Virus record (IMG/VR): IMGVR_UViG_3300010885_020079
Coordinates: 1 to 24,503 of that record
Direction: 5' to 3' (one strand)
DNA from: a virus
Length of the DNA: 24,503 nt
Each line of letters begins with the position of its first letter. The first letter of the stretch is position 1. A program made the position numbers and the translations under genes. The notes under the pieces were generated by a model, which saw nothing but the letters and a program-made list of their open reading frames with translations, made no database searches and was not told the DNA's origin. Below are positions 1,657-17,418 of the stretch, piece after piece.

Positions 1657-1734
1657 TCTTATGCTGAATAGAACCAGCCAAGCCTATTAACAATGCTCAA
1701 ATCGTGCTGGTCTTTTATTAAAAAGAAGCCAAAA

Positions 1735-3177: not shown

Positions 3178-3501
3178 TTATAAGTGTTTTTTGATCTTGC
3201 AATTAAAGACTTCACGTTTTGGAGTAGAATTTTTATCATTGCATAATGATTTACAGCCAAAATCAGTCCTTTCCCACCTATCCTTTTTGTGTCCTTCAAT
3301 AAATGTTTGATAGCTCATGTTGATAGGATTATCAATCCCACCACATTCAAGCGGACAAACGTGATCTACAACAAATCCCCTGCGCCCATGCGGATAACCC
3401 TGTTGTTTATCAAAATGATGTTTTTGTGTTTGTGACCGGCACGTTGTTTCATCTGCATAACTTGCAAACGATAATGCAATCAATAATAAGAACAGTTTCA
3501 T
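3178..3501 (-). CDS. Secreted HNH-nuclease-like protein
   Basis: A 107-aa product with a short signal peptide (MKLFLLLIALSFASYA, cut about residue 16). The body carries an HNH-type pattern: GYPHGRRGFVVDHVCPLECG with the Asp-His pair at 46-47, then GG-x-DNP-x-NM (Asn58 and Asn61) and HKKDRWER with His71. Cysteines at 21, 49, 53, 83, 87 and 101 could form disulphides in the periplasm. This exact style of short HNH domain (YPHGR-x-x-xVVDH-x-x-PL-x-CGG-x-D-x-P-x-NM) is known in bacteria and phages; an exported form beside lysis genes suggests degradation of DNA outside the cytoplasm, which is inference. It starts at an ATGA overlap with its upstream neighbour. Confidence 0.82.
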   Translation of the reverse strand: MKLFLLLIALSFASYADETTCRSQTQKHHFDKQQGYPHGRRGFVVDHVCPLECGGIDNPINMSYQTFIEGHKKDRWERTDFGCKSLCNDKNSTPKREVFNCKIKKHL

Positions 3502-6164: not shown

Positions 6165-8219
6165 TTAAAAAGATGACAATGCAGCTCTAACCCAAACATT
6201 CGTAGCCGTACAGATGTAGATATAGTTTGCAGTAATACGAATCTCTCCTGCTATTCCTGTATCCGTTGATGAGGCTGGTGCGGTATTTAAAGCATTAAGT
6301 TGAAATTTGCCAGCATGAGTAGTACCGCCCAGGTAAGTATCAGTTACACTGCTATTACCTAGCGTAGCGGTATTGCTGCCATTACCAGTTGCAGAGTCAC
6401 CTATAACAATTTCATTAGTACCACTACCAGCCTTGGCTTTTGTGGAGTCGCCAATAAATATTGAGGTTGTACTGCCCGTGTTAGCTGTTGATCCGTCCGT
6501 TAGATAGCGTCCAGCATTATAGCCAAAGCCAACACAATGATTACCTGTCGTCAGTCCAGCCAGCGCGTAAGCGCCAAATCCGTTATTAAGGCTAGATGAG
6601 GTAGAAGATCCCAAACAGCCGCTACCAAAAGCACAACCAGAACTTGTCGTTGTTATGTTTTGATAGGCTCCTGCGCCAAATGCTGTTGTATTACTGCCTG
6701 TTGTTAAGTTTCTCAGTGCTGATGCGCCGACCGCCGTTACGTTAGCCGATGTTGTTATATGCTGCGCTGCATATTGACCGATACCGCAAGAACTTGATGC
6801 TGTTGTTGCATCTTGTAACGATGCATAGCCGAACCCGGTAAGACCGCTGCCTGTTGTAGCATAACCACCGGACAATGTACCGGCAAATAGGTTGCAGCTT
6901 GAAATGTTTGCCCGTAAAGAAAATACATTATTTCCTGATGAATCAACAAGTTTCATAACTCCTTGAGACGAGTCATACAATCGTCTCAACGAAACAACAA
7001 TAGTGCCGTTAAAATCAGTTGTTGGGGTTATAGATAAAGTGCCAGTTGCTGCTGTTCCTGTATTAAACTCGCCTGTTGCTGTATAAGCTGCGCTTGTTAC
7101 GCTGCCGAAAGTTATAGTAAAACTACCGGCCGTCCTGCCAGTAACCGTAAATGTCGCCCTATATCTAATGCTTGCTGTAGCAGACAGGGTATTTGTAAGT
7201 GCTGTAGTATTGCCTGCCGTGTGCGTAAATCCAGCAGTAAAACCACCCGTCCAGCCCGTACTTGTCCAGTTGGTTGTATCAAGCAATTCGTTGGATAATG
7301 GCGGAAGTCCTGTTTGAACAATATTAGGATAGTTAATATAACTACCAGAGTATTTATAACCATTACCGACAGTGCTAAACAATTCAGTAAAGTTCTGCAA
7401 TATTTTATTGACTACCAGCGCCCGACCTGCCGGGTTAAAGTGCAGCGAATCACTGCGCAAAGAGGTTGGCGTAATGTCGTTGCCAAAATCTATAACGTCC
7501 TGTGCCTGGTTAGGATCGTATTGATTAACCATGTATGTGCGGATATCAATATAATGATTTCCGTAAGTCGCAGCGAGGTAATTATTAAGCTGTATTAAAG
7601 TAACATAATCGGCCTGTCCTTTATATTCGATTGCGTAGTTTCCGTTTGGTATTGATAAGATAAGATACTTGTCAGTAGTCAATGCCGCAACCATTTCGGC
7701 TATGTCTGCTTTTACTGTTGCTGGTGATTCGAGGTTGTTACGGCCTGCCCAAATTATTGTAGGTAATCCCCATTTTTCTGGATCTGCTAAGAAGCGTGCC
7801 TTAATCTGTGTTGATGTTTCACCACCCACGCCGCCGTTATAGACAATCTGATTAATCTGATTAGCTAAGATGTCAGGATATTTACTGCCTGGATCGCCTG
7901 ATGTTAGACTATCTCCCCAAGCCGCAATGGCAGAATCAATTACTAATGATCCTGATAGTGGAATCCAATTATTGCCATCACAAAGATATTTATCTATACC
8001 ACCAACTGTCCACTCGCCTTTTCCAAATAATGTAGCGCTTGGTCTGTCAGCTAATAAAGAGCTTGATCCACGATTGTACCATTCGACACCGTTAGATGAT
8101 AGATCAATATGATAAGCTGATGTTGAAATTTGCGCTGTACCAGCACCAAAAGCCGATGCTATTGGTAATACCGATAGTGATGAAATTGTTACGGGATTTT
8201 CTCTATTAAATAATGGCAT
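6165..8219 (-). CDS. Tail protein with SGNH/GDSL hydrolase domain and YadA-like repeats
   Basis: I start this at ATG 8219, preceded by AGAGGA at 7 bases; a longer frame to 8306 would run through the end of the neighbouring gene. The 684-aa product has four parts. Residues 1-90 look like a virion attachment region. Residues 94-282 are an SGNH hydrolase: block I WGDSLTSG with Ser104, block II GVGGE, block III GRNN and block V DSLHFNPAG with Asp257 and His260. About 305-412 is a beta-sandwich, carbohydrate-binding-like module. About 440-615 holds some five repeats of the type N-x-T-A-FG-x-x-A-x-x-x-LTTG, as in YadA-like adhesin heads, followed by a stem ending in GNSSVTDTYLGG. It probably deacylates a surface polysaccharide while the repeats form a trimeric beta roll. 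Confidence 0.87.
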   Translation of the reverse strand: MPLFNRENPVTISSLSVLPIASAFGAGTAQISTSAYHIDLSSNGVEWYNRGSSSLLADRPSATLFGKGEWTVGGIDKYLCDGNNWIPLSGSLVIDSAIAAWGDSLTSGDPGSKYPDILANQINQIVYNGGVGGETSTQIKARFLADPEKWGLPTIIWAGRNNLESPATVKADIAEMVAALTTDKYLILSIPNGNYAIEYKGQADYVTLIQLNNYLAATYGNHYIDIRTYMVNQYDPNQAQDVIDFGNDITPTSLRSDSLHFNPAGRALVVNKILQNFTELFSTVGNGYKYSGSYINYPNIVQTGLPPLSNELLDTTNWTSTGWTGGFTAGFTHTAGNTTALTNTLSATASIRYRATFTVTGRTAGSFTITFGSVTSAAYTATGEFNTGTAATGTLSITPTTDFNGTIVVSLRRLYDSSQGVMKLVDSSGNNVFSLRANISSCNLFAGTLSGGYATTGSGLTGFGYASLQDATTASSSCGIGQYAAQHITTSANVTAVGASALRNLTTGSNTTAFGAGAYQNITTTSSGCAFGSGCLGSSTSSSLNNGFGAYALAGLTTGNHCVGFGYNAGRYLTDGSTANTGSTTSIFIGDSTKAKAGSGTNEIVIGDSATGNGSNTATLGNSSVTDTYLGGTTHAGKFQLNALNTAPASSTDTGIAGEIRITANYIYICTATNVWVRAALSSF

Positions 8220-8221
8220 AT

Positions 8222-8656
8222 TTAAAATTCCTCTGCTATAAAAGTTTGTCCGGTTGTTGCACCATAAATTGAAATGGCATAACTTGTACATCCAGCAATA
8301 GGACATTCATATAATGCGCCTGGTTGTAATTGTTTTGATGATAAGCTCGCGATTCCATTTGTTATATTAAAATAAAGCGTTCCTGCACTTGTATTTTGCA
8401 AAGAAAATCCACGTCGAACAGGATTGGCAGCCATTAATTGCTGCGCTGTACCTCCAATCGTTATTGTCCCAGACCTATCAATAGGTGTTACGGGTGGAAA
8501 ATAGATAGGGATTGGATTTGTTTTGGAAACATCGCCATCATTAATACCATCAGATCCCAAAACGATTTTATTACGCTGATACTGAACACCTAAAATCTCA
8601 TCGCTTGCGACGATTGACCCATTTAGACCTGGATTTAAAACTACATTATCAGCCAT
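8222..8656 (-). CDS. Small virion structural protein, fibre-associated
   Basis: The 144-aa product starts with NPGLNGSIVASDEILGVQYQ and a KIVLGSDGINDGDVS-x-x-NPIPI block, a conserved module seen in small structural proteins of many tailed phages. A second beta-rich module follows (IDRSGTITIGGTAQQLMAAN, RRGFSLQNTSAGTLYFNI, and SIYGATTGQTFIAEEF). The exact place in the virion is not known to me; it is probably a tail decoration or fibre adaptor, given its position between baseplate J and the SGNH tail protein. AGGG lies about 10 bases before the ATG. Confidence 0.75.
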   Translation of the reverse strand: MADNVVLNPGLNGSIVASDEILGVQYQRNKIVLGSDGINDGDVSKTNPIPIYFPPVTPIDRSGTITIGGTAQQLMAANPVRRGFSLQNTSAGTLYFNITNGIASLSSKQLQPGALYECPIAGCTSYAISIYGATTGQTFIAEEF

Positions 8657-12228: not shown

Positions 12229-12800
12229 GTTGTTGTTGTCCTTATTTTTTGTACTTGACCGCCATTATTAACATTTTCTGCTGATTTTGATTTTACAGGA
12301 GCGGAATAACCAACATCATTTGTTAATAAAATCTCCTTAAAAAATAACTCTGCAAATAGAATGTTCGTTCCTTCATCAGAACGCTGTTTGTAATTATATC
12401 TCTCAAGATTGCAATTAGAATAAGTTATGTATTTTGTTACTACATCATATAAATTTAAATCATTATTGATTTTATCAATTTCTTGTAAACATCTATTTAT
12501 TTCATCAATCGTCCCTTCCTTGATGATTAATACAGGTATTTCAAAAGGCGTTATTACTTTGTTATATGAAGAAAATGCGCCTTTTTCTTGTCGATAATTA
12601 GCTATTATCGAGCCATTTGTAATATTAAAATCTAAAATACCATCAATAGTTAGAGCAGGTTTATTATTAAGATAAATGCCATATTGCGGCTGCAATAATC
12701 CTAAATAATCAAGCGCAAGATTTTCTATGGCTCTAATTTGCGTATAAATTTGAAAAGGTATTTGTAAATCATTTAATAGTGCAGGAATACCGTTAGCCAT
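12225..12800 (-). CDS. Dit-like tail/baseplate protein
   Basis: A 191-aa protein right after the tape measure. The segment about 58-155 has the Dit-like pattern: RQEKGAFSSYNKVITPFEIP, an acidic CLQEIDKINNDLNLYDVVT and the NCNLERYNYKQRSDEGTN stretch before LFAELFFKEI. Such proteins form the ring joining tube end and baseplate hub. The C-terminal 30 residues are polar and probably flexible. It begins at TAATG over the tape-measure stop and ends at ATGA over the plug gene. Confidence 0.82.
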   Translation of the reverse strand: MANGIPALLNDLQIPFQIYTQIRAIENLALDYLGLLQPQYGIYLNNKPALTIDGILDFNITNGSIIANYRQEKGAFSSYNKVITPFEIPVLIIKEGTIDEINRCLQEIDKINNDLNLYDVVTKYITYSNCNLERYNYKQRSDEGTNILFAELFFKEILLTNDVGYSAPVKSKSAENVNNGGQVQKIRTTTT

Positions 12801-14758
12801 TATGCTGTTTGTCCTGTATTAAAATTATTAAATAGTGTGCTCATCATTGCAGGCCGTATTGATTGCGCTATGCCTTTTGCGTCAGTAGCTTGGGTCGTTA
12901 TGTTAATTGCATTTATTTTAACGTCTGTTTGTGCATTATTTGTCGTTGTATTTGCCATTGGCTTGGCTGTTGCGCCATTTGCTATAGCAATAGGTTTGTG
13001 CATACGTGTTGCCCAATCTTGATAAGATTCAGGCTTATGCCCTAACAGATTATTTAAACTATCAATTATTGTTGATGGTGGTGGTTCTTTTTTAACTATG
13101 GGTTCTATGGGATGAGTTTCTTTTTTGACAATATTTATTGGTTCATAATTGCCTAAAATTTTCTTAACATAATTTTGTGTTTCAGGGAAATTAGGTAATT
13201 GATTATTTTTTATATTACCAGCCCCTGCATTATAAGCACCTAAAGCTAAATCAGTTCGACCAAATTTATCAAGGTTGATACGCATTAATTTAGCTTGTGC
13301 TTCAATGCTGGCTAATGGATCAAATGGATTAGCAAGTCCTATATCTTTCGCAGTATCGGGCATGAATTGTGAAAACCCCTTTGCACCCGCTGGACTCACA
13401 GCTTTAGGATTAAATCCACTTTCTTGTTTTGTTTGTGCTATCAATAAATTCGGATCAATGCCGTATTTCTTTCCAACTTCTGCATATTTATCTAGTACAA
13501 CATCATAATCAAAACCATATTGCTTAGAGGCTTTGCGCATAGCTTTTAAATTTTCTTGCGCAGCTCCTTCCTTACCTTCGCCAGTTACATACTCAATAAT
13601 TTTTTCACCAGCATTCAAACCTTTTTCTATTAATGGGTCTAATATTTCACCAAATTTTTTGTGAATTGCTTCCCCCTCAGCCATTCCTGCCCACATCACA
13701 CCCAAAGCCATTGAAACTTTGCCTAAGCTAAGAGCCAATAGACCAAGAGAATTAATTAAGGGCAATAATCGAATAGCTGCCAATCCGATTAAAATATTTT
13801 CCCATCCGCCCATTTTTTGCACTAATTCATCAATTTGATTTAAAAATGGCTGTGCAGATTTGTACCAGTCCTTGACCATTACAACAAATTCATCTTTGTG
13901 CGCTAAAATCCATTCTCCAAATCGCTCAAATTGAAAAATTGCCCATTTAATTGCAGGCAATAAAGCAAGAGTAATATCAACAGCAACGGCATTAAAACGA
14001 TCCTGTAATCCAGATAAAACTACACGCAATCCTTGTGCTTTCTCTGTTGCATCTTTGTTTTTGTTGGCTAATTCCTTTTGTGCGTCAACCAACTTTTTTA
14101 CAACATCTGGACCTTGTACTAATAAATTAAAAGCCCCTTCATCCAATCCCCACATTTGTGCCAATGCTAAAGCATCAGCTTTGCCATACTTATTTACTGC
14201 TTCTTTTAATACTCTAGATTGCTCTTTTAACCATTCCTCTGGATTATTGGCATATTTTTTTGGATCAAATTTTCCACCTAAGCTAAAAAAGCTTAAATCG
14301 CCAATATGAGCACTTGCAAGTCTTTCGCTAACAGCCCTTCCACCTTCATGAGCAAAAGATACGGCATCTTTATTCGCTTGCGCTAAGGCTCGCGTCATAC
14401 TTTCCGCCGATCCGCCTGCCTTTTCCGCTGCCATGCCCCAGGCTTGTAATCTTTCCGGTGCCATTTCCATATTAGCCGCGGTAAAGCCAAGATTAGCCAT
14501 ACTATTAACGGTATTTTTTACAATACGTTCTATGCCAGCACTTCCGGCAAATAATGATAGTAACAACAAAGCTTCATTACGAATCTGCTTAAAAAAAAGC
14601 GCTCCTTGTGCGCCGTTCTTTTCAAGGTCATCGGCAGTTCTTTTTGATGATTTGCGAGTTTTTTCTAAACCTTCCTCAGTTTCAACAATGCCTTTTGATA
14701 CGCCTTTATCGACGAAACCAAGTTCTATTAAAAATTCCTCAATTACATTGCCGGCCAT
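12800..14758 (-). CDS. Tail tape measure protein with SLT lytic transglycosylase domain
   Basis: The 652-aa protein sets tail length and enters the cell envelope during infection. The first 60 residues are charged and helical; about 60-90 and 320-360 are hydrophobic (NILIGLAAIRLLPLINSLG, LLALSLGKVSMALGVM) and could insert in the membrane. Residues about 423-537 form an SLT transglycosylase domain: KYGIDPNLLIAQTKQESGFN with catalytic Glu446, AVSPAGAKGFSQFMPDTAKD, and LALGAYNAGAGNI, which cuts peptidoglycan. The tail is Lys/Pro/Asn-rich. At roughly 1.5 angstrom per residue the full protein would span at most about 98 nm, a short tail. Its ATG overlaps the stop of the frameshifted chaperone (TAATG). 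Confidence 0.93.
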   Translation of the reverse strand: MAGNVIEEFLIELGFVDKGVSKGIVETEEGLEKTRKSSKRTADDLEKNGAQGALFFKQIRNEALLLLSLFAGSAGIERIVKNTVNSMANLGFTAANMEMAPERLQAWGMAAEKAGGSAESMTRALAQANKDAVSFAHEGGRAVSERLASAHIGDLSFFSLGGKFDPKKYANNPEEWLKEQSRVLKEAVNKYGKADALALAQMWGLDEGAFNLLVQGPDVVKKLVDAQKELANKNKDATEKAQGLRVVLSGLQDRFNAVAVDITLALLPAIKWAIFQFERFGEWILAHKDEFVVMVKDWYKSAQPFLNQIDELVQKMGGWENILIGLAAIRLLPLINSLGLLALSLGKVSMALGVMWAGMAEGEAIHKKFGEILDPLIEKGLNAGEKIIEYVTGEGKEGAAQENLKAMRKASKQYGFDYDVVLDKYAEVGKKYGIDPNLLIAQTKQESGFNPKAVSPAGAKGFSQFMPDTAKDIGLANPFDPLASIEAQAKLMRINLDKFGRTDLALGAYNAGAGNIKNNQLPNFPETQNYVKKILGNYEPINIVKKETHPIEPIVKKEPPPSTIIDSLNNLLGHKPESYQDWATRMHKPIAIANGATAKPMANTTTNNAQTDVKINAINITTQATDAKGIAQSIRPAMMSTLFNNFNTGQTA

Positions 14759-15383
14759 TATTTATTATCCATTTGTGCACGTTTATTAGCTTGATAAGCA
14801 TTAAAAGAATCAACAGTGATTATTTCAATCATATTATGTAAATCCTTTTGTCCATAAACTGTTTGTAATTCATGAAGAGTTGCCATTCTTTTACTGACTA
14901 CCAAACCGATAAAGCTGGACATATTGACATAATCAAGAATATCTTGTTCATCAATAGAAATGTGTCCATAGTCAACTACTTTTCGGCTATTAAAAAATCC
15001 AGATGCAACATTAATGCCTCTTTTCGTAATTTGGCGAGTGTTACCGGTTCTTCAATATCGTCCTGTATCAATTCCCTTATGACGTTTGGTTGTTTTGGAT
15101 CGGGAATGATTTTAATGCAATCAAGCAATTCATTAAGCAAAGGCTTGAGCGAGTGATAATCAATATTACCAACTGTTTTGCTAAAAACTGCTGATACAAC
15201 TGCCATCATGCCCAATTTTTGTGCATTTTTGGGTATATCAATACCTGCATTAAGCAAACATAAAATAGCGCGATAACCCCAATCTTCGGATTGTGCCGCG
15301 GGCATTTCAGTTATTAAAAATTGTTTTCCTGAATCACGACCGCATTTATCGTCGCAAGTATAGAGTTTTGTTAATCTAGCCAT
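14758..15383 (-). CDS. Tail assembly chaperone, long form made by -1 frameshift
   Basis: Reading the first 131 codons in frame zero and then moving back one base at T TTT TTA (14997-14991) gives a 208-aa product: after DFL the sequence continues NSRKVVDYGHISIDEQDILD and runs 77 codons to TAA at 14760-14758. The extension holds VNMSSFIGLVVSKRMATLHE and EIITVDSFNAYQANKRAQ, a normal helical protein composition. Its stop overlaps the tape-measure ATG. The extension has no ATG near its beginning and no other gene fills the 217 bases, so a frameshift product is the simplest reading. Lambda GT-type proteins link tape measure and tube protein in the same manner. Confidence 0.8.
14976..15383 (-). CDS. 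Tail assembly chaperone, short (zero-frame) form
   Basis: A 135-aa protein located between tube and tape-measure genes, where tail assembly chaperones lie. It starts MARLTKLYTCDDKCGRDSGK, with a Cys pair, QFLITEMPAAQSEDWGYRAI, and a helical rest ending LRKEALMLHLDFLIAEK. These are features of the phage tail assembly chaperone group that coats the tape measure. GGAA lies about 8 bases before the ATG. The frame stops at TAG (14976-14978), five codons past a slip site, which gives a short and a long product as in lambda G/GT. Function is assigned from gene order, frameshift and N-terminal pattern. Confidence 0.8.
   Translation of the reverse strand: MARLTKLYTCDDKCGRDSGKQFLITEMPAAQSEDWGYRAILCLLNAGIDIPKNAQKLGMMAVVSAVFSKTVGNIDYHSLKPLLNELLDCIKIIPDPKQPNVIRELIQDDIEEPVTLAKLRKEALMLHLDFLIAEK
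14991..14997 (-). promoter_or_regulatory. Programmed -1 frameshift slip site T TTT TTA
   Basis: On the minus strand the zero frame reads GAT TTT TTA ATA GCC, so the heptamer T TTT TTA is in the X XXY YYZ phase required for -1 slipping. The zero-frame TAG follows 12 bases later. No strong downstream stem-loop is obvious; only short pairings are seen. Confidence 0.78.
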
Positions 15384-15486: not shown

Positions 15487-15924
15487 TTATACGCCAACCA
15501 TCGTTATTTTTTCCCATTGGATTTTGAACGAAATGGGTTGTGAGATTTTACGAATATCCGGTATAGATTTTCCGCTAATCAATATTCCGCGAGATAAAAC
15601 ATATTTATATCCAAGGTCTGGAATAATAATAGATGCCTCTGCACGATACATTGATTTATTAGTAATACTGGCTTGTAGCCAGTTAATAATCATCGGTACA
15701 CCATTTGATGTGGGCTGCAATGTTAACGTCTGTATAGGGGCATTAGGCACGAAACCGCCCAACAATTTACCCTCCAAACTCATGACTGTTTCCGCAATAA
15801 CCAAATCCTCAGTGCCAAAAGGCGCGTCCGCGCTAAATTGATCTAAAATCTGAGGTACTGGATAAAGGCTAGTAACTGCAAGGCCGAACGTGCAATTTGC
15901 CGCTGTAAGTGATTTTTCCGCCAT
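15487..15924 (-). CDS. Tail tube protein
   Basis: A 145-aa, mostly beta protein placed after the sheath gene, as tube genes usually are. It starts MAEKSLTAANCTFGLAVTSL and has a conserved-looking AETVMSLEGKLLGGFVPNAP, then TLQPTSNGVPMIINWLQASI and the final SFKIQWEKITMVGV, which fit the sandwich of tube proteins in DUF3383-type phages. Size agrees with tube monomers (about 140-170 aa). The assignment depends strongly on gene order. Ribosome site AGG is weak. Confidence 0.78.
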   Translation of the reverse strand: MAEKSLTAANCTFGLAVTSLYPVPQILDQFSADAPFGTEDLVIAETVMSLEGKLLGGFVPNAPIQTLTLQPTSNGVPMIINWLQASITNKSMYRAEASIIIPDLGYKYVLSRGILISGKSIPDIRKISQPISFKIQWEKITMVGV

Positions 15925-15936
15925 TGTCTTAGCCTA

Positions 15937-17418
15937 TTATTGTAAGAGAGTTGAAGTCATGTTAATTTTTTGTACAGCTTGACCGTCCATATACCAGAAA
16001 TTAATATTAGGGCTTGTCCGGTTGCCGCGAGCTGTGCCGCCTGGGTCTTTGACTTGTAGATACCAACCTTGTTGAAACAATGTTCGATCTATTGCGGTTC
16101 CGGCTGCATTATTAATCGCAACAACCTCAGTTGATGTTGGTTGTACACCTACACGGATAGCGCCATAATTAATAGCTGCATTAATATTATCTCTTAATGC
16201 TGTTTCAATCATTGTGTAGCCATAATCATTATATGGTATTGATGGGACACTCATTAACAAAGTCATCAAAGTGCTTTGAAAGCTAGCGTTCATCCAAATT
16301 TGATTGATATACGAATCCAACCATTTAAATGGACCTGAAACACTACCAGGATAAATAAAATTGAATCCCTGTGCAGCGGTTGCATAAGCGCCATAAAAGT
16401 TTAAGCCATTGGCAATAAGAACATCTCCGGTAGTTTGATCAGTAACACTCGGAATCAAGCCGGATTGATTTTTGAAAGCGAAAGTTGGGCGATTATTGGT
16501 TTGAGTAAAATCAATACTTGAAATAAAACCACATAAAGCCGCTGCGTGAGTTACGCTATTATATAATACGGTTGTTCCACTAGAGCCATTTTGCGCTAAT
16601 TGATATTCAAATGTTGCTGTGGTGTTAGGAACGATTGTATTGACATCGGTATCCCAAGCAATATAAACATAACGATTATTTTTGCTGTTTGTCCATGTTG
16701 CGAAAGCTGTTTTATCAGCCAAAACAGGCTCAAACAATGTAGTAAATACAACCCAGTTTGTTGAGATATTTGCAATCGCTGTCATTGCACTAGTAGGATT
16801 GGTAATTGCCGCGCCTTGAGACAATGTTCCTGCTGCCAAACCAATGCCAGCCGCGAGGGTTCCTGTCGCCTGTGTGATTGTAGATAATGCGCCCGTGGTG
16901 CTGGATGTAATGACAAATGCGCTTGATATAGAATCAAAAGTGCAAGTCACGCCGGTAAATCCGGCGGTAACTAATGCGCTTTGAATTAAAGTAGCTGCTG
17001 CGCTAAAAGATGCCGCACCGCTTAAATTGATTGATGCTGTAGTGTGCGCTGTGCCATCAATGGTTAATGTCAATGTACCGCTTAATGCCTGCAATTGAAC
17101 AAGTGTCATTGATGCTAAAGACGTGCCGCGTAAATAAGCCGCTACCGCTGCCGCATTATATTGATAAAAATACAATAATCCGGGTTTACTCTGACTGATT
17201 GAATAGCCATTGAAATAAACCGATGCTAATGTTGCTTCAGTTGATGTTGAACCAAAATAAGTTGCTACATTATCCGCGCTGGAAAAAGGCAATAACGAAC
17301 CGATAGGGACGCGGGTTGATGATGTTAAAAATACCGAATTGAGTGCAAGTTGTTGACCTCCCGCGCTTAAAACATTAGGATTGACTTGAACTATTGAACT
17401 GACTGGAATTGTAGCCAT
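15937..17418 (-). CDS. Contractile tail sheath protein (DUF3383)
   Basis: The 493-aa product matches DUF3383, the sheath family of simple contractile-tailed phages. Landmarks: [40 protein letters not shown] with [20 protein letters not shown]; residues about 113-203 form the family's Thr/Ala-rich beta domain ([38 protein letters not shown]). The C-terminal half has [36 protein letters not shown] and [17 protein letters not shown], the part that forms the contractile core around the tube. AGGA precedes the ATG at a good distance. Gene lies between tail terminator and tube. Confidence 0.93.

Follow-up and report, generated by a model that had tools for sequence, protein, structure and literature searches.

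The -1 frameshift of tail assembly chaperone genes is an established phage mechanism, reportedly described by Xu, Hendrix and Duda in 2004 for the gpG/gpGT tail assembly chaperone of lambda. In lambda G/GT, a short and a long chaperone are translated from one start, the -1 slip (at G GGA AAG) is placed near the end of the short ORF, and the gene is located directly upstream of the tape measure. Such chaperone genes form the training class of PRFect, which refers to the 28 phages of Xu et al. (PMC10274946). The same frameshift argument is published for the Vandenendeviridae in the paper on the Pakpunavirus Adele, in which a conserved -1 frame is accompanied by a poly-T slip motif (GTTTTT) and the downstream part is noted to be routinely annotated as a hypothetical gene (PMC12846349). 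Thus, the initial annotation of the locus analyzed here was right to regard a G/GT-type arrangement as already known in phages. No report of frameshifting in the present phage group was found in the open-access literature.

The locus is carried by a linear, AT-rich fragment of 24.5 kb from a viral record, the whole of which (24,503 nt) is termed the window. The phage is a contractile-tail phage with a DUF3383-type sheath, and its minus-strand genes are ordered as a Mu F-like head protein, a DUF2213 protease, the major capsid protein, small head-tail genes, the DUF3383 tail sheath (15937..17418; phrog_205, E 1e-90; PF11863, E 1.2e-124), a virion structural protein in the tail-tube position (15487..15924; phrog_1964, E 8.4e-37; PF22764 E217_Gp32, E 1.8e-15), the chaperone gene, the tape-measure protein and further ORFs that include an endolysin. 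The tape-measure protein (12800..14758, minus strand) is matched by phrog_9570 and phrog_2276 (tape measure), by the lytic tail protein family phrog_2013 (E 4.6e-68) and, through its SLT lytic transglycosylase domain, by Pfam SLT (E 2.9e-23). The gene under study is located between the tail tube/sheath genes and the tape measure, which is the usual position of a tail assembly chaperone.

The predicted short chaperone is a G-type zero-frame ORF of 135 aa (14976..15383, minus strand), with its ATG at 15383, its TAG at 14978-14976 and CTG GAT TTT TTA ATA GCC GAA AAG TAG as its last codons. These include the slippery heptamer T TTT TTA (14991..14997, minus strand), set in the phase X XXY YYZ, 12 nt before the TAG. 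Re-reading of A14991 leads into an extension of 77 codons (14758..14991, minus strand; NSRK...MDNK) that terminates in a TAA at 14760-14758 and overlaps the tape-measure ATG (14758) as TAATG, the last A of the TAA being common to both. The -1 frame opens 73 nt ahead of the zero-frame stop, and the predicted fusion product is 208 aa, of which the N-terminal 131 residues are common to the short form. The coordinates initially assigned to the heptamer and to the 77-codon frame on the minus strand hold, as does the 217-nt length of the apparent gap between the TAG and the tape-measure ATG that this frame fills. The gene is a clear new example of the established mechanism: judged from sequence, it is very probably (at roughly 0.95) subject to programmed -1 ribosomal frameshifting that yields a short and a long tail assembly chaperone. 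As in lambda G/GT, the two forms share one start, the -1 slip is near the end of the short ORF and the gene is directly upstream of the tape measure. By contrast, the slip site is T TTT TTA instead of the G GGA AAG of lambda, and the window gene belongs to a contractile-tail phage and is without Pfam match to a described chaperone family. The poly-T slip motif, the conserved -1 frame and an extension that annotations usually treat as intergenic or as a hypothetical gene of its own are shared with Adele and the Vandenendeviridae (PMC12846349); however, the phage families are others, and the motif is T TTT TTN rather than GTTTTT.

Both halves of the predicted fusion belong to phage protein families. 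The short ORF is matched by phrog_1932 (E 1.8e-37), a family with the annotation tail assembly chaperone, and the extension matches phrog_3976, a 67-aa family of unknown function (E 1.1e-17); no Pfam match was found for either half. In tblastn searches of phage records with the fusion, 109 records were matched at E <= 0.01, of which 81 cover at least 80% of the query, and the best match it as two adjacent pieces. Matches to the ~88 kb Pseudomonas phages such as PAK_P3 were only marginal. Homologous halves in the -1 relation are found in AP22 (Obolenskvirus, Acinetobacter), Aeromonas vB_AsaM-56, Pantoea PA-1 and Edwardsiella Edno5, which are distant (23-40% identity to the window fusion); AP22, PA-1 and Edno5 share T TTT TTN with the window, whereas vB_AsaM-56 has G GGT TTT. 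A sequence search of the PDB returned no match for the short chaperone and only a chance match for the extension. AlphaFold2 models the short form at pLDDT 87 and the extension at pLDDT 92, the latter with a long C-terminal helix. In Foldseek searches of viral models, the short form is closest to named tail assembly chaperones and AB1gp01, which together with phrog_1932 relates the N-terminal domain to known chaperones, and the best matches of the extension (E 0.004-0.4) include Bcep781 gp47 and small phage proteins. In a PDB fold search with the short form, the first-ranked match is the HK97 tail assembly chaperone (2OB9), a non-significant hit (E 0.91, TM 0.32).

The open -1 frame continues as a conserved protein domain in a broad set of relatives, assembled from 20 phage regions plus 126 loci found in genomes of IMG/VR and GTDB. 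A search with the single fusion protein gave no confirmed relatives, and a 12-sequence alignment (A1) was too diverse as a query; the loci were found with a 5-sequence alignment (A2). The positions of both halves could be determined for 139 sequences, window included, and the extension is in the -1 frame in 138 of these. This frame is uninterrupted over the extension in the relatives; the broken -1 frame by which the initial annotation would have been refuted was not seen. One of the 138, L017 (Xanthomonas), turned out to match spuriously, and its removal leaves 137. The sole exception among the 139 is L109 (Paraburkholderia panacisoli), in which the two halves stand in a +1 relation at about 3395-3425, around GATTTTTTCTTCTCG; an error, decay or a -2/+1 shift are candidate readings. 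In the annotated phage records examined, the extension is never joined to the short ORF; it either has a hypothetical CDS of its own or lacks annotation. Thus, the long product is missed by gene calling as initially stated, and the present analysis corrects the annotation of a gene that these records either split or show as a gap. Since the mechanism is established elsewhere, the finding adds a new member and not a new mechanism. The 137-locus family set makes slip-site strength, spacing and loss comparable, together with the natural one-frame version of Bcep781.

Canonical heptamers are common in the AT-rich window (37 in phase among 6769 codon positions, ~1 per 180 codons), so the heptamer alone is weak evidence and the argument is carried by the relatives. 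The junction Phe codon was located by a simple motif in 130 loci, which greedy clustering at 70% identity reduced to 58 representatives. At this codon, 39 of the 58 have T TTT TTN, 8 have G GGT TTN and 2 have A AAT TTN, i.e., a canonical heptamer in 49/58 compared to 8/7193 other in-phase positions of the same ORFs. The remaining 9 are non-canonical (6 T TTT TNN, 2 T TTT NNN and 1 V TTT TTN) and keep the T run. Conservation of the heptamer in relatives, which the initial annotation had put forward as a check, is thus borne out in two grades, with 39/58 retaining the T TTT TTN form and 10/58 another canonical heptamer at the same Phe codon. The junction Phe is TTT in 56/58 representatives versus 102/284 Phe codons elsewhere in the same genes, and the codon before it ends in T in 57/58. 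In the 41 representatives with GC3 >= 0.6, TTT is used at the junction in 39/41 versus 50/202 elsewhere (Fisher p 6e-18); at precisely this position, synonymous choice has thus settled on the slippery codon. Non-canonical junctions include T TTT GTA in the Klebsiella and Raoultella loci, T TTT TCN in several relatives, CAT TTC in L068 and L082, and CTA AAA G in L011. The family thus has no strict requirement for the exact heptamer, and these relatives would need single-tRNA slippage or another site; the heptamer of the window is itself unaffected. In L089 (3375-3381) and at the same site in L099, T TTT TAA places the zero-frame stop directly after the slip codon, where slippage would compete with termination.

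The separate CDS given to the extension in the records of Pantoea PA-1, AP22, vB_AsaM-56 and Edno5 raises the alternative of a small gene that has its own start codon and is translated either independently or through re-initiation past the TAG. In-frame start candidates do exist in the window, at extension codons 24 (ATG), 30 and 36, and an SD-like motif precedes some in-frame start in 9/58 representatives. However, no Shine-Dalgarno sequence was found before the window candidates, which lie upstream of the conserved core, and the -1 frame is protein-like right from the heptamer on, including a conserved R-R motif ahead of these starts. The nearest relative, L023 from IMG/VR (79% identity in the best segment and 77% over the fusion), is informative on this point. 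Its junction, T TTT TTG, occupies the matching position, 12 nt ahead of its stop, and L023 has no start codon at extension codons 24, 30 or 36; its sole and first candidate is codon 54, which lies within the conserved helix of the domain. The absence of the window candidates from L023 argues against a separate gene. The extension is thus not a conserved gene of its own, an arrangement that would have refuted the initial reading. Differences between the two extensions are distributed over the codon positions of the -1 frame as 14/9/34; in this frame, 19 of the codon changes are synonymous and 21 nonsynonymous, versus 2 and 1 synonymous changes in the other two frames. The third-position bias is thus confined to the -1 frame. 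No second close relative besides L023 was found in a scan with the two closest sequences. A separate gene would also leave the synonymous T-run bias at the junction unexplained, and this alternative is considered highly improbable.

Two further explanations place the origin of the frame break outside the ribosome. A mutation or sequencing error in a normally continuous ORF would be in line with the error-prone nature of T runs and with Bcep781 gp47, in which both halves are in one frame; however, the same -1 relation in 138/139 loci, from isolates, metagenomes and bacterial genomes alike, refutes this reading, the probability of which is close to nil. Alternatively, the long form could arise by transcriptional slippage, in which the polymerase adds an extra base to the mRNA on the T run. 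T or A runs can provoke polymerase slippage, and the site has six T's in the window and seven or more in some relatives. By contrast, the T runs of L040, L146 and L147, which have G GGT TTC, are short and compatible with tandem tRNA slippage only; the T run is, moreover, in register with the codons. A transcriptional origin is regarded as very unlikely.

Programmed ribosomal frameshifting, the preferred reading, would proceed as follows. Most ribosomes would read 15383-14976 and release the 135-aa short chaperone. We infer that a minority, when decoding Phe-Leu at U UUU UUA, slip, both tRNAs moving back by one base, and that these ribosomes miss the UAG 12 nt on and add 77 residues to form the 208-aa long chaperone. 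If the roles match those of lambda G/GT, the tape-measure protein would be coated or protected by the short form, and the C-terminal domain of the long form would connect the tape measure with the tail-tube subunits. This link between the tape measure and the tube subunits would set up tail assembly.

Stimulatory RNA elements were sought on both sides of the slip site. No SD-like stimulator was found 6-20 nt upstream of the site in the window, and in the family such motifs occur at 9% of sites versus 22% of controls. Downstream, a possible stimulatory stem-loop (14905..14987, minus strand) follows the heptamer after a 3-nt spacer, with helices formed by 14987-14978 with 14915-14905 and by 14968-14963 with 14921-14916. 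Several window lengths were tried for this structure: at 91 nt, z is -2.53 in the window, which ranks second among 101 scanned windows, and -4.83 in L023, and in 50-60-nt windows z is 0.41 and -0.43 in the window. Each of the 15 pairs in the two main helices is retained between the window and L023 (a comparison of two sequences only), with two compensatory changes and one G-U/G-C change, and slid versions of the comparison keep 23-47% of cells; the shuffle control of pair conservation was not exceeded (119/500). The stem-loop thus appears to be conserved between these two sequences, which is suggestive only. Over the family, z averages -1.29 for 50-nt windows at the site versus -0.16 upstream; at 91 nt, the average is -1.10 at the site, compared with -0.88 for the tape measure and -0.22 upstream. 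As the 91-nt mean is little beyond the tape-measure control, it is no general proof of a stimulator.

A version of the same pair of proteins is found in Burkholderia phage Bcep781. Its gp47 (170 aa; phrog_18181) has both halves in order and in one frame, as detected by hhalign with the profiles of the short ORF (E 1.8e-5) and the extension (E 1.7e-10), and the adjoining gp46 is a phrog_1932 chaperone (E 5e-31); the two genes are at 2019-2938 of the Bcep781 locus (L013). Similarly to the window, Bcep781 and Bcep1 (Naesvirus) have a short-type chaperone and a long-type protein with both halves; by contrast, the long and short forms are two separate genes. As the long form is in a single frame, no frameshift is needed in Naesvirus, and the two products of the frameshift are apparently provided by two genes in Bcep781. 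No similarity between gp46 and gp47 was detected by BLASTP, so duplication is only a candidate origin. A broader reading, held tentatively and at somewhat less than even odds, would combine these observations: slippage at T TTT TTA may be stimulated by the conserved stem-loop, which starts 3 nt downstream of the heptamer and extends across the zero-frame stop, and the need of DUF3383-sheath myophages for two isoforms may be met in two ways, by -1 slippage at the T run or by two separate genes as in Naesvirus.

Other features of the window were noted. An abiF RNA (Rfam RF03085) at 1674-1711 (plus strand) scores 50.4 bits versus a cut-off of 37 and is followed by a T-rich stretch; no AbiF/Abi_2 protein was found among the neighbouring ORFs of this fragment tested with Pfam. 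In C. difficile, an AbiF-associated RNA is a type III antitoxin to AbiF (PMC12373285), and thus the orphan phage RNA could be a counter-defence decoy or a remnant. An orphan antitoxin-type RNA of this kind is more surprising than the frameshift gene. A looser abiF RNA pattern is present in 10 viral contigs of IMG/VR (L149-L158), near a capsid gene in L154, and ten neighbouring ORFs from six of these contigs gave no match to Abi_2; orphan abiF RNAs may thus recur in phages. Near the lysis region, a 107-aa ORF (3178-3501, minus strand) has no match in Pfam or PHROGs and displays, by eye only, a signal-peptide-like start and an HNH-like pattern of His, Asp and Cys. A likely tail fibre is encoded at 6165-8306 (minus strand) and includes, again by eye only, an SGNH-hydrolase-like stretch (DSLTSGDPGSKYP ... 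DSLHFNPAG).
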